Shown: piece by piece, positions 13,867-34,320 of the stretch
Layout: every line of letters starts with the position of its first letter
Position numbering within the stretch: the stretch's first letter is position 1
Assembly (NCBI RefSeq): GCF_023111095.1
Contig: NZ_JALGYW010000005.1
Location: 62,001-126,000 of the forward strand
DNA from: Maribellus sp. YY47
Lineage (GTDB): Bacteria; Bacteroidota; Bacteroidia; Bacteroidales; Prolixibacteraceae
DNA: 64,000 bases
Direction of reading: 5' to 3'
The notes under the pieces: model-generated
What the model was told of the DNA's origin: nothing
Seen by the model: the letters and a program-made list of their open reading frames with translations, nothing else
The model's database searches: none
Translations under genes and position numbers: made by a program

Positions 13867-13922
13867 AACTGAAAAATCAGTTTAAAAACTGAAAAAATAG
13901 TTGCAAAACTGAAAAATCAGTT
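13867..13922 (+). promoter_or_regulatory. three phased palindromic operators, probable BlaI-type binding sites
   Basis: Sites at 13867-13882 and 13907-13922 are identical perfect inverted repeats, AACTGA-AAAA-TCAGTT. A third, imperfect copy (AACTGA-AAAA-ATAGTT) lies at 13887-13902. The starts are exactly 20 bp apart, so the sites face nearly the same side of the helix. The last abuts the -7 box at 13924, ideal for repression of the gene that follows, which encodes a BlaI-type repressor. The DNA-binding specificity is inferred from position, not known. Confidence 0.7.
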
Positions 13923-13956: not shown

Positions 13957-14328
13957 ATGAACCGTAAAATGAAAAGACTTACCAGAAAAGAAGAAGAGGT
14001 AATGAAAATCCTCTGGCAGCTGAAAAGGGCTTTTGTAAAAGACATCATCGAAGAGTACGACGATCCGAAACCACATTACAACACCATTTCGTCGCTGGTG
14101 CGTTTGTTGCAGGAGAAAGGAGTGGTGGGCTACAAACAATACGGAAACACCTATCAGTACTTTCCTCTTCTCTCAAAAGAAGAATACCGCCGAACGTTTA
14201 TGAAACAGGTGGTGAGCGATTATTTTGACAATTCGTATAAAAGTGCGGTTGCTTTTTTTGTAAAAGAAAAAGGCCTTTCGGAACAAGAGATTGATGAGCT
14301 GATAAAAATGATAAAGGAGGGAAATTAA
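13957..14328 (+). CDS. BlaI/MecI/CopY family transcriptional repressor
   Basis: 123 residues. The N-terminal winged helix (LTRKEEEVMKILWQLKRAFVKDII, then HYNTISSLVRLLQEKGVVGYKQYGNTYQYFPLLSKEEYRRTF) is typical of the family and the C-terminal helices allow dimerisation. BlaI repressors are removed by proteolysis or other signals from a partner M56 membrane protein. The start at 13957 adds four residues ahead of the ATG at 13969, which could also serve. The stop and the next ATG overlap by one base (TAATG), so the pair is translationally coupled. The operator array just upstream indicates autoregulation. Confidence 0.92.
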   Translation: MNRKMKRLTRKEEEVMKILWQLKRAFVKDIIEEYDDPKPHYNTISSLVRLLQEKGVVGYKQYGNTYQYFPLLSKEEYRRTFMKQVVSDYFDNSYKSAVAFFVKEKGLSEQEIDELIKMIKEGN

Positions 14329-31235: not shown

Positions 31236-31922
31236 TTACATTAATTTTTTGAGTTCTTCTTTTAGTAACTCCACTCCTTTGCCGGCTTTTTCCTGAATAT
31301 AAAAGACATTGGGTTGGTGAATGGCAGGTTTGCCCGGGTCGATCACAAAAACCGGCGTGCCGCTTTGCACGTAATTAACCAGCCCTGCAGCGGGATAAAC
31401 GGCCAGCGAAGTTCCGATAACAACCAGGATATCGGCTTGCTCAACAATTCGGATGGCCTTCGGAATTTCAGTCACTGCTTCGCCAAACCACACAATATGC
31501 GGACGGAGCTGACTGCCTTTTTCACATAAATCGCCCAGGTCGAGCGCCCAATGATCGAGCTCATAAACCAGGAAAGGATCAATCGTGCTGCGGGCTTTTG
31601 TTAGTTCGCCATGCAAATGCAAAACGCGCGAACTCCCGGCCCGCTCGTGCAGGTTGTCGACATTCTGTGTTACTACATCCACATCAAACCATTGTTCCAA
31701 TTCGGCAATTCCAAGGTGCCCGGCGTTCGGTTCCACTTCATAAAGTTGTTTGCGGCGCTGGTTGTAAAAACGAAGTACCAGTGCCGGATCGCGTTCCCAG
31801 GCTTCGGGCGATGCCACTTCGGTAACATCGTATTGTTCCCACAATCCGCCCATGTCGCGAAAGGTTTTTAATCCGCTCTCCTGGCTCATGCCGGCCCCTG
31901 AAAGTACCACCAGTTTTTTCAT
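31236..31922 (-). CDS. Sir2-family NAD-dependent deacylase (class III type), zinc site degenerate
   Basis: 228 residues from the ATG at 31922 (MKKLVVLSGAGMSQESGL). The NAD loops GAGMSQESG and TQNVDNLHERAG and catalytic HLHGEL are intact. YNQR matches the Tyr-x-x-Arg pair that selects succinyl-/malonyl-lysine in class III sirtuins. The usual four zinc cysteines are not there: only one Cys lies between HGE and RPHIVWFGE. The enzyme would use NAD+ to remove acyl groups from lysine, giving O-acyl-ADP-ribose. Cytoplasmic. A 454-bp stretch with the 21-bp repeat lies upstream. Confidence 0.85.
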   Translation of the reverse strand: MKKLVVLSGAGMSQESGLKTFRDMGGLWEQYDVTEVASPEAWERDPALVLRFYNQRRKQLYEVEPNAGHLGIAELEQWFDVDVVTQNVDNLHERAGSSRVLHLHGELTKARSTIDPFLVYELDHWALDLGDLCEKGSQLRPHIVWFGEAVTEIPKAIRIVEQADILVVIGTSLAVYPAAGLVNYVQSGTPVFVIDPGKPAIHQPNVFYIQEKAGKGVELLKEELKKLM

Positions 31923-32034
31923 TTTTTTGAAAAGGATTTTCAGTTTCTTCAAAAATACAATTTCGGTGAAGAAAAAGAATCCTGGATCATTGGTTTACTC
32001 CGGGTAAATATGTTTTTAAGCTTGTCGGTAATGG

Positions 32035-32286
32035 TTGCCCATGTCTTTTGGCTTTGTGCCCCAAGGGGATTATTCCGTGCCCCATGAAACATGGTTTGCG
32101 AAACAAGGGGCACGGTTTGTGCCCCAATCTTTTTGTTCTCTGCCCCATGGGGATCGAAATCCGAAAACAGGGGCACGGCCTGTGCCCTAAGGGAATGCTT
32201 TTGTGAAAATAGGGACGCGTTTTGTGCCCCTTGGGGATTGTACAGAGAACCAAGGGGATTATCTTGCGCCCCGAAGTATCTGTCGT
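32035..32286. repeat. degenerate 21-bp tandem repeat array, at least 12 units
   Basis: Twelve consecutive 21-bp blocks starting at 32035. The first base of a GTGCCCC (or near) motif recurs at 32056, 32077, 32119, 32140, 32182, 32224 and 32266, all multiples of 21 apart. GGGG runs recur at 32065, 32107, 32149, 32170, 32191, 32212, 32233 and 32254, also in exact 21-bp phase. The fresh unit is GTGCCCC, two bases, GGGG, then an AT-rich 8-bp tail; a second flavour has GGGGCAC reversing the GTGCCCC, so the core is palindromic. Because 21 is a multiple of 3, several frames stay open across it, but no protein is supported. Confidence 0.85.
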
Positions 32287-32363
32287 GTTTCCCGGCATAT
32301 GAATTTTACTTTCCGTCCTTCCCGGTGTTCATAAAAATAACCGGAATCTTAATTTGAAATCTC

Positions 32364-32371
32364 TACATTTG
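32364..32371 (+). promoter_or_regulatory. -7 box of dnaG
   Basis: TACATTTG, perfect TAnnTTTG. It ends 5 bp before the GTG start at 32377, so transcription would begin at or next to the start codon (leaderless mRNA). No -33 TTTG is present at the expected distance. Confidence 0.5.
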
Positions 32372-32376
32372 CACTT

Positions 32377-34320
32377 GTGATCGATCATGCTACCATAGAG
32401 CGAATACTGGATGCAGCCGAGATATCAGATGTGGTATCCGACTTTGTGACACTTCGAAAACGAGGGGTTAACATGTTGGGCGTGTGTCCGTTTCATAACG
32501 AAAAAACACCTTCGTTTACGGTTTCTCCGGCCAAGGGGATTTTTAAGTGTTTTGGATGCGGAAAAGGAGGAAACTCCGTGAACTTCATCATGGAACACGA
32601 GAACCTGACTTACCCCGAAGCGCTCAAGTGGCTGGCTAAAAAATACAACATCGAGATTGTTGAGGAAGAGGAAACCGATGAGCAGAAACAGCTAAAAGAC
32701 GAGCGCGAAAGTTTAATGATCGTGTCGGGTTTTGCCCAGAAATATTTTAGCCGTTTTTTGTGGGAAGAAAACGAAGGACGTACCATTGGACTGAGTTATT
32801 TCAGGGAACGCAGTTTTCGCGACGATGTGATGAAAAAGTTCGAAGTGGGCTACGCCCCTGACGGCAAAACACCGTTTACCGATGCTGCTCTGAAACAAGG
32901 GTACAAAATCGACTACCTTGAAAAAACGGGGCTGACCATTAAACGCGACGACTGGTTGCGCGACCGCTTTGCTGCCCGGGTGATTTTCCCGATCCACAAC
33001 CTGGCCGGGAGGGTGATCGCTTTTGGGGGCCGTATTCTGAAAGACGATAAGAAAATTGCCAAATACCTCAATTCTCCGGAATCGGAGATTTACCACAAAA
33101 GCAAAGTTTTATACGGAATTTATCAGGCCAAACGTGAAATGACACGTTCTGATAAAGCCTACCTGGTGGAGGGTTACACCGATGTGTTGTCGATGCACCA
33201 GGCCGGAATTGAGAATGTGGTGGCCTCTTCGGGTACGGCTTTGACCGTGGAACAGATTCGTTTGGTGAGACGATTCACGCCCAATATTACCATTATTTAC
33301 GATGGCGATGCAGCCGGAATAAAAGCTTCGTTGCGGGGAATCGACCTGGTGCTGGAAGAGGGAATGAATGTAAAAGTGTTGCTTTTGCCCGATGGCGAAG
33401 ACCCCGATTCGTTTGCCAAGAAAATGGGGGCCAGCGCTTTTCTTTCCTACATTAAGGAACACGAAACCGATTTTATCCGCTTCAAAACCCAGTTGTTGAT
33501 GAAAGATACCGAGAACGATCCGATTGCCCGGGCAAGGCTTATTTCGGAAGTGATCCGCTCGGTGGCGATTATCCCTGATTCGATTACCCGCTCGGTTTAT
33601 ATCAAAGATTGCAGCAACCTGTTGGGTGTCGACGAAGAAGTATTGTACAACGAAGTCAGAAGGCAAAAACAGAAGCAGGAAGGAGATTTTCAACGGAGAG
33701 ATACCCGGGAGCAACAAGTGCGTCCGGTACCCAAAATGGAAGTTCCTCCGGTTTTAACTCCTTCGGGATTTCAGACCGAAGAACTTGAGTTTTTGAGGTT
33801 TCTGTTAAAACATGCCAATGCCCTCATTTATTTCAGGGAAAAAGGAAGCGACGAGAAGATTGCCGTAAGCGTGAAAGACTTTATGGTGGCTGAAATCGAA
33901 GAAGATGAGCTGGTGTCGCAAAATCCTTTGTTTCAGAAGATCTTTTACGACGTGGCTGACAATATCGAAAACGATGCCTTCGATTCGTGGAAACACTTTA
34001 TTTATCATCCTAACGGAGAAATCAGCAAGCTGGCAACCGATTTACTTTCGGATAAATACATCGAGAGTAAACGCTGGACAAAAGCCGGGGCCTTTACCGA
34101 GCGGGAGGAAGACATTCTGGATATACTCATACCGCGAATCGTAAACGAGTATAAGCTGAACAAAGTGAGAGGCATGTTGTCGGGTATTGAAAAAGCGATT
34201 GAAGAGGCAAGCGCTGCCAAAGATTTCGACCGGGTGATTGAAGAACAATCGATGTATATGAACCTGAAACGTGTGGAAAAAGAACTTACCATGCAATTGG
34301 GGAACCGAATAATAAGTTAA
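32377..34320 (+). CDS. dnaG: DNA primase
   Basis: 647 residues. Zinc-binding CHC2 domain (C37, H40, C58, C61: VCPFHNEKTPSF, KCFGCGKGG), then the catalytic core with YLVEGYTDVLSMHQAG and toprim DGD in IYDGDAAGIKAS, and a helicase-interacting C-terminal part. DnaG makes RNA primers at the replication fork in the cytoplasm. Start is the GTG at 32377 (MIDHATIERILDAAEI); no upstream ATG exists in frame and the next internal Met lies inside the zinc domain. Stop is followed by 7 nt to the next gene. Confidence 0.95.
   Translation: MIDHATIERILDAAEISDVVSDFVTLRKRGVNMLGVCPFHNEKTPSFTVSPAKGIFKCFGCGKGGNSVNFIMEHENLTYPEALKWLAKKYNIEIVEEEETDEQKQLKDERESLMIVSGFAQKYFSRFLWEENEGRTIGLSYFRERSFRDDVMKKFEVGYAPDGKTPFTDAALKQGYKIDYLEKTGLTIKRDDWLRDRFAARVIFPIHNLAGRVIAFGGRILKDDKKIAKYLNSPESEIYHKSKVLYGIYQAKREMTRSDKAYLVEGYTDVLSMHQAGIENVVASSGTALTVEQIRLVRRFTPNITIIYDGDAAGIKASLRGIDLVLEEGMNVKVLLLPDGEDPDSFAKKMGASAFLSYIKEHETDFIRFKTQLLMKDTENDPIARARLISEVIRSVAIIPDSITRSVYIKDCSNLLGVDEEVLYNEVRRQKQKQEGDFQRRDTREQQVRPVPKMEVPPVLTPSGFQTEELEFLRFLLKHANALIYFREKGSDEKIAVSVKDFMVAEIEEDELVSQNPLFQKIFYDVADNIENDAFDSWKHFIYHPNGEISKLATDLLSDKYIESKRWTKAGAFTEREEDILDILIPRIVNEYKLNKVRGMLSGIEKAIEEASAAKDFDRVIEEQSMYMNLKRVEKELTMQLGNRIIS

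Follow-up and report, generated by a model that had tools for sequence, protein, structure and literature searches.

Iterons and the operator arrays of dimeric regulators, as found at plasmid origins and partition centromeres, carry protein-binding sites in tandem with a phase of about two turns of the helix. BOX elements of pneumococcus are modular and dispersed, and contain a variable number of inner units. Two further classes of intergenic repeat are relevant: REP/BIME elements are dispersed extragenic palindromes that occur in clusters (PMC3733652), and heptanucleotide intergenic repeats are degenerate, tandem, present in Bacteroidetes and seen as insertions relative to close relatives (PMC4679880, PMC4692102).

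Here we describe a phased 21-bp array at positions 32,035–32,286 (+ strand) of the window, the whole 64,000-nucleotide stretch of Maribellus sp. YY47 DNA that was analysed, and the dispersed family to which it belongs (family 1). Family 1 resembles iterons and operator arrays in having tandem, here putative, binding sites at a phase of about two turns, and it shows phase and core conservation, the cognate protein being putative. It is nevertheless a low-copy dispersed chromosomal element with varying neighbours and no known partner gene, and it uses two interchangeable half-site words in a polar order. With BOX elements it shares a modular, dispersed character but differs in unit length, sequence and phase. 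As far as the available text of the sources describes them, heptamer repeats and REPs differ from family 1 in period, copy number or grammar. REP/BIME elements are likewise dispersed, clustered extragenic palindromes (PMC3733652), whereas family 1 has a 21-bp phase, a conserved order of 11–15 units, few copies and no association with counts of Y1 transposase genes; heptanucleotide repeats are likewise degenerate intergenic tandem repeats found as insertions relative to close relatives, but they are 7-bp direct repeats (PMC4679880, PMC4692102), in contrast to 21-bp units with paired half-sites. We found no description of such phased arrays in the open-licence PubMed Central literature, which is not proof of absence.

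A phased 21-bp array between the sirtuin and dnaG genes

The 21-bp array is real. Autocorrelation of 32,035–32,286 gave an identity of 0.459 at lag 21, 0.495 at lag 42 and 0.497 at lag 63, compared with a lag-21 mean of 0.2495 (s.d. 0.030) in dinucleotide shuffles. None of 2,000 shuffles was as high as the real array at lag 21, and the highest value at any lag from 5 to 69 among them was 0.396; the 21-bp peak that the preliminary description had proposed looking for is therefore present. When the full window was scanned for periodicity (lags 5–99, in 231-bp segments), the top four values, at lags 42, 21, 63 and 84, all fell at the array. Stepped by 21 from 32,035, its 12 units stay in register without slip. 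Tandem Repeats Finder, run at a minimum score of 30, returned no row there. GTGCCCC-like motifs had been reported at seven starts and occur at all seven, in a single phase modulo 21, with variants at 32,140 (CTGCCCC), 32,182 (GTGCCCT) and 32,266 (GCGCCCC). G runs are likewise present at all eight starts given for GGGG, although those at 32,191 and 32,212 are GGG.

We assigned the array to the + strand, the orientation in which units read TGCCCC..GGGG, and distinguished three kinds of unit rather than the two flavours originally proposed: H (CCCC-nn-GGGG), F (AAAA-nn-GGGG) and R (CCCC-nn-TTTT). The order is R H (C?) F R H F H F H (?G) and an end unit. The left end is formed by an R unit, TGCCCATGTCTTTTGGCTTTG (32,036–32,056), followed by an H unit, TGCCCC AA GGGG (32,057–32,077), an irregular unit, TGCCCC AT GAAA (32,078–32,098), an F unit, CGAAAC AA GGGG (32,099–32,119), an R unit, TGCCCC AA TCTTTTT (32,120–32,140), and units 6–10 in the order H F H F H (32,141–32,245); units 11 and 12, AGAACCAAGGGG.. 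and CGCCCCGAAG.., make an irregular right end (32,246–32,286). Pfam matches identify the neighbours, as had been proposed, as a sirtuin gene on the left (SIR2, PF02146; 31,236–31,952, − strand) and the dnaG primase gene on the right (PF08275 and PF01807; 32,377–34,320, + strand). Because these two genes are divergent, the array lies in the upstream region common to both.

Two half-site words in a polar order

Each unit consists of two inverted half-sites with 2 bases between them. The CCCC word recurs throughout, and a second word (AAAA in the genus) takes its place on one side of some units. Simple thresholds applied to 212 units from 19 arrays typed 115 as CG, 53 as AG, 29 as CT, 15 as ambiguous and none as AT; for the arrays from which opening unit orders and flanking genes were read, typing relied on position weight matrices derived from those very arrays, with ambiguous units forced to H, F or R. 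Core departures in the 115 H units included 8 T at position 6 and 7 A at position 9, and such strand symmetry is as expected of double-stranded recognition. In H units, however, symmetry is confined to the core, the left flank being mostly TG and the right flank AT, which is a point against reading the units as sites for a dimer.

GCCCC starts keep a single phase modulo 21 in 16 of the 19 arrays, and among the 26 arrays of at least nine units the unit-to-unit step was 21 in 296 of 305 cases, 42 in four, and 20 or 22 in five, under a chaining that allowed only steps of 19–23 and 41–43 and favoured 21.

The order of units is polar: R units tend to lie leftward and F units rightward, and the two are seldom adjacent. 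R preceded F in 154 pairs and followed it in 44, against a shuffled expectation of 99 (s.d. 11), and adjacent non-H pairs numbered 8 versus about 56 in shuffles (0 of 2,000 for each). With one array per site (n = 12), R preceded F in 78 pairs and followed it in 17, and adjacent non-H pairs numbered 4 against about 27 in shuffles, again with 0 of 2,000 shuffles in each case. R H R H opens 18 of the 26 longer arrays, but not the window array.

A dispersed, low-copy chromosomal family

Family 1 is a dispersed element of about 230–315 bp, typically with 11–15 units of 21 bp. A sequence-only detection model (R1), built from 52 array fragments of the window's genus and therefore favouring it, detected the element in 15 of 37 congeneric genomes, with one to about four arrays in each; several matches in G010 and G001 are array pieces cut by contig ends. 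The window's own genome yielded a single family-1 array. When the array was compared by BLASTN with 101 relatives, strong matches (E < 0.001) were confined to the same genus and often numbered several per genome; a match of any kind at E ≤ 0.1 was obtained in 24 of the 101, the window's genome included. A pattern scan of genome contigs returned 17 stretches, three of them from Draconibacterium. The search for the unit elsewhere in the genome and in relatives thus bears out the earlier suggestion of an intergenic repeat family.

Neighbours vary between sites. Arrays lie between phospholipase-D-like and PALP enzyme genes (site A), glyoxalase and tilS (site B) or M48 and M20 peptidases (site C); a papain-like protease is the right neighbour at site D and a methyltransferase at site E, and the site-F array adjoins a small protein that has no Pfam match. 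An array next to dnaG was seen at the window site only. Of 30 loci examined for the sirtuin/dnaG site, 27 have no 21-bp array, some of these with another neighbour than dnaG (best periodic score at most 0.41, against 0.52–0.57 for the other three). Several sites lack an array in some congeners, so arrays come and go. Identical unit orders at unrelated sites indicate copying of whole elements. Family-1 arrays all appear to go back to a single common element, so that counts over arrays are not independent. Arrays went undetected in 22 of the 37 congeners, some of whose genomes are incomplete, and their function therefore seems dispensable.

As a separate observation, two separate family-1 arrays of only six units each in G013 (L134, L135) have the same gene pair beside them at a distance of about 300 bp, one of its members being an rve-type transposase.

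Conserved phase and cores, drifting spacers and linkers

Four of six arrays beside the site-F gene (G034, G014, G003 and G005; set F) are orthologous and share the same unit order and length, 294 bp; L127 and L132, which adjoin the same gene with a different unit order, are excluded from the set. Pairwise differences in set F amounted to 6.2% in the left core and 7.7% in the right core, 9% at the first two bases, 19.7% in the linker and 29.8% in the spacer, against differences of 41–49% at the fourfold sites of a gene that these genomes share. Neither of the two further orthologous pairs shows a clear contrast. The pair of arrays in set E had 3 of 48 differences in the left core, 0 of 48 in the right core and 2 of 24 in the spacer, so that here the left core is not clearly slower. 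Set D arrays (G034 and G014) differ at 5 of 273 positions. Such near identity in two species suggests recent exchange, which weakens the gene-based neutral yardstick; that spacers differ more than cores in set F holds independently of that yardstick. What is retained is the phase and the core sequence; spacers and linkers change. The two-turn phase noted in the preliminary description is kept between species, as judged from the order and length of set F, the single phase of most arrays and the 300 of 305 steps that are multiples of 21. Its word 'decaying', by contrast, lacks support as it stands: in the four set F arrays, which come from relatives, cores are conserved and unit order is fixed, although the window copy is more irregular than most.

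Among 140 genomes of the family, six from outside the genus matched the model. In the five that we inspected by eye (the sixth is G143), arrays are phased at 21 or 42 bp and the CCCC half is kept. The second word, again by eye, reads GTCAC in G044, GTTACC in G171, TGTAC in G154 and AAAA plus ATATCC in G169, and in G160 TTCCCC and AAAAAA units alternate at 42 bp. Since the 21- or 42-bp phase is kept with a changed second word, the architecture outlives the words.

Other phased arrays

Non-coding arrays with a period of at least 12 in 1.26 Mb from three congeners had periods of 20, 21, 21, 21, 41, 41 and 41, one of them being the window array and two of the 41s starting at a stretch edge; a CRISPR array (period 65–66, counted four times) was set aside. 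A genome of a different family, sampled over 400 kb, yielded no such array. A second 21-bp element, with GGCGACTGCAGTAGGC-like units in similar order in the printed copies, has four strong matches in the window's genome; in G032 and G004 it is nested, at the sirtuin/dnaG site, in what is left of a family-1 array. Site C of G006 (L302, about 1,140–1,350) holds an unrelated 20/21-bp dyad array, whereas in G030 and G005 this site is occupied by family 1. Its CCTGT words are spaced at 20, 21, 20, 20, 21 and 20 bp and the inverted ACAGG words that follow at 21, 20 and 20 bp, and its sequence is able to form a long hairpin. Two chromosomal sites carry different array families in different species.

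Within the window, a row of three 16-bp dyads, AACTGAAAAATCAGTT, lies at 13,867–13,922, spaced exactly 20 bp apart and with two mismatches in the middle copy, just upstream of a Penicillinase_R (BlaI/MecI-type) repressor gene (13,957–14,328). These dyads are probably operators of that repressor, and the row may show what an ordinary operator row looks like here.

Several further repeats were observed. A third 21-bp array, with TAAAACCGGATGCTCGTTTGA units, occupies L209:17384–17570 (G000:C54, about 37.4 kb), adjoining 7-bp repeats and upstream of what by eye looks like a sulfatase gene. A 20/21-bp array with GGAAA on the left and ATTTCC or TTTCC on the right occurs at L246:6465–6690 (G008) and L218:17143–17345 (G034, near cas1), and a 21-bp array with TTCTC on the left and GGGAGAA on the right lies beside a HydF-like gene at L246:17038–17232 (G008). 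Degenerate 7-bp (17) and 10-bp (6) repeats make up the 23 non-coding matches in samples L258–L277 of G084.

Coding, folding and replicon readings

The proposal that this is not a coding repeat agrees with the reading frames: none is open across all 19 arrays, the best is open in 9, and there are 15 to 52 stops per frame. A heptad-repeat protein, suggested by the 7-codon period and an open 103-aa frame on the minus strand, was rejected on account of stops in several arrays in every frame, and the 103-aa open reading frame has no Pfam match. That the array is not a CRISPR likewise stands, the units being degenerate and contiguous, with no cas gene among the four neighbouring open reading frames tested by Pfam. 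An ordered RNA fold was rejected: for 19 arrays on both strands, z scores against unit-order shuffles ranged from −2.4 to +2.2, so that for family 1 the RNA folding suggested at the outset gives no support to a structure-forming array, the real order folding no better than shuffled order on either strand. Scores against dinucleotide shuffles (−0.4 to −6.6) would alone have suggested structure. Curved DNA was also discarded, as the predicted curvature of 12 arrays, based on wedge angles, lay within about 1.2 s.d. of base shuffles, and an Rfam search of 31,800–32,500 gave five weak matches, none at the gathering score.

A macrodomain or partition site was rejected because coordinates compared by eye revealed no constant distance to dnaA in G034, G003, G013 and G030, and a phage or plasmid origin because the G034 array (L032) had no BLASTN match in phages or plasmids; the window region had matches in five plasmid records, all confined to dnaG or sirtuin sequence. 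Among eight pattern matches on viral contigs, L279:1–135 and L282:2537–2600 are short 21-bp arrays of CACCCCGTGGGGCCGAACTGA-like units, the latter between primase-like and helicase-like genes (by eye). L283 and L284 represent one GC-rich viral contig with a 21-bp period, by eye apparently a coding repeat, and the remaining four matches contain no 21-bp array.

Competing explanations

Our preferred reading, offered tentatively and as somewhat short of probable, is that the array is a row of half-sites that a putative dimeric DNA-binding protein would occupy along one side of the helix. Each 21-bp unit would bind a dimer, and two helical turns per unit would align the dimers on a single DNA face, where, at a few places on the chromosome, they could assemble cooperatively into a nucleoprotein patch. 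Its two ends would be marked by the words standing in for CCCC, R on the left and F on the right, and these would so give the patch a direction. Its candidate roles would be to silence or insulate neighbours, to position DNA or to copy the element itself.

Polar order could also reflect a two-way transcription terminator or insulator, in which R on the left and F on the right halt transcription entering from either side: GGGG followed by R makes a hairpin and a T run on the plus strand, and F followed by CCCC makes the same on the minus strand. Terminator-like consensus matches lie at the F4–R5 junction (GGGGCACGGTTTGTGCCCC AATCTTTTTG; 32,107–32,135, + strand) and at the F7–H8 junction (32,161–32,187, − strand). 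The 551 bp around the array hold four such sites against 0.7 expected, three of them wholly within it, and 12 arrays (three from site A and two from site C, hence not one per site) hold 24 against 3 in their flanks of at most 600 nt each. A C that extends the stem occupies linker position 1 at 47 of 89 junctions beside a T/A tract but at 1 of 40 plain H–H junctions (19 arrays, leaving out the 7 of 26 that have steps of 20, 22 or 42), and these features fit the R-left/F-right order. However, shuffled unit order still gives 19.2 sites (s.d. 2.8), with 21 of 300 shuffles reaching 24, so the excess largely follows from the unit types themselves, and the linker-C count holds few independent cases because junctions in different arrays are homologous. 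Neighbours are convergent at 5 of 11 readable sites but divergent at four, the window site included, and tandem at two; the second half-sites of G044, G171 and G154 have no T run, and termination has no need of a 21-bp phase. We consider this account unlikely. The kept phase also counts against a neutral satellite decaying after replication slippage from 7-bp repeats (21 = 3 × 7), which are common in these genomes: degenerate 7-bp arrays are frequent in our samples of them and of G084, and border some arrays. Such an origin is very improbable given the conserved cores and fixed order of set F, and the window array has a lag-7 identity of only 0.282, against 0.459 at lag 21, unlike STRR-type heptamers. 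The unrelated G006 array, moreover, alternates 20 and 21 bp, unlike a copied fixed unit. A selfish repeat mobilised through hairpins, in the manner of REP/BIME or MITE elements and with no host function, would accord with the shared unit order at unrelated sites, the empty sites in relatives and the second 21-bp element that two genomes carry, at one and the same site, inside what is left of a family-1 array. It is set against the low number of arrays per genome, core conservation at a fixed site and the failure to establish a target-site duplication. Y1 transposase genes (PF01797) occur in 35 of the 37 genomes, with 1–12 matches in array-bearing and 0–15 in array-free genomes; these counts do not track the arrays, and mobilisation by RAYT was rejected on this basis. 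A selfish element is, in our judgement, improbable.

Implications

More broadly, family 1 might be one instance of a wider group of arrays with units of 20–21 or 41 bp, helically phased and in part built of dyads, whose conserved signal lies in the spacing and the half-site grammar and whose words are replaceable; several unrelated families at chromosomal sites would then serve one undescribed DNA-organising or insulating machinery. We regard this as a rather doubtful extension. A repeat class defined by geometry over sequence can escape ordinary repeat finders, as the window array did. The half-site grammar is specific enough for direct testing, and such a class would point to a novel DNA-organising or insulating protein in the Bacteroidota.
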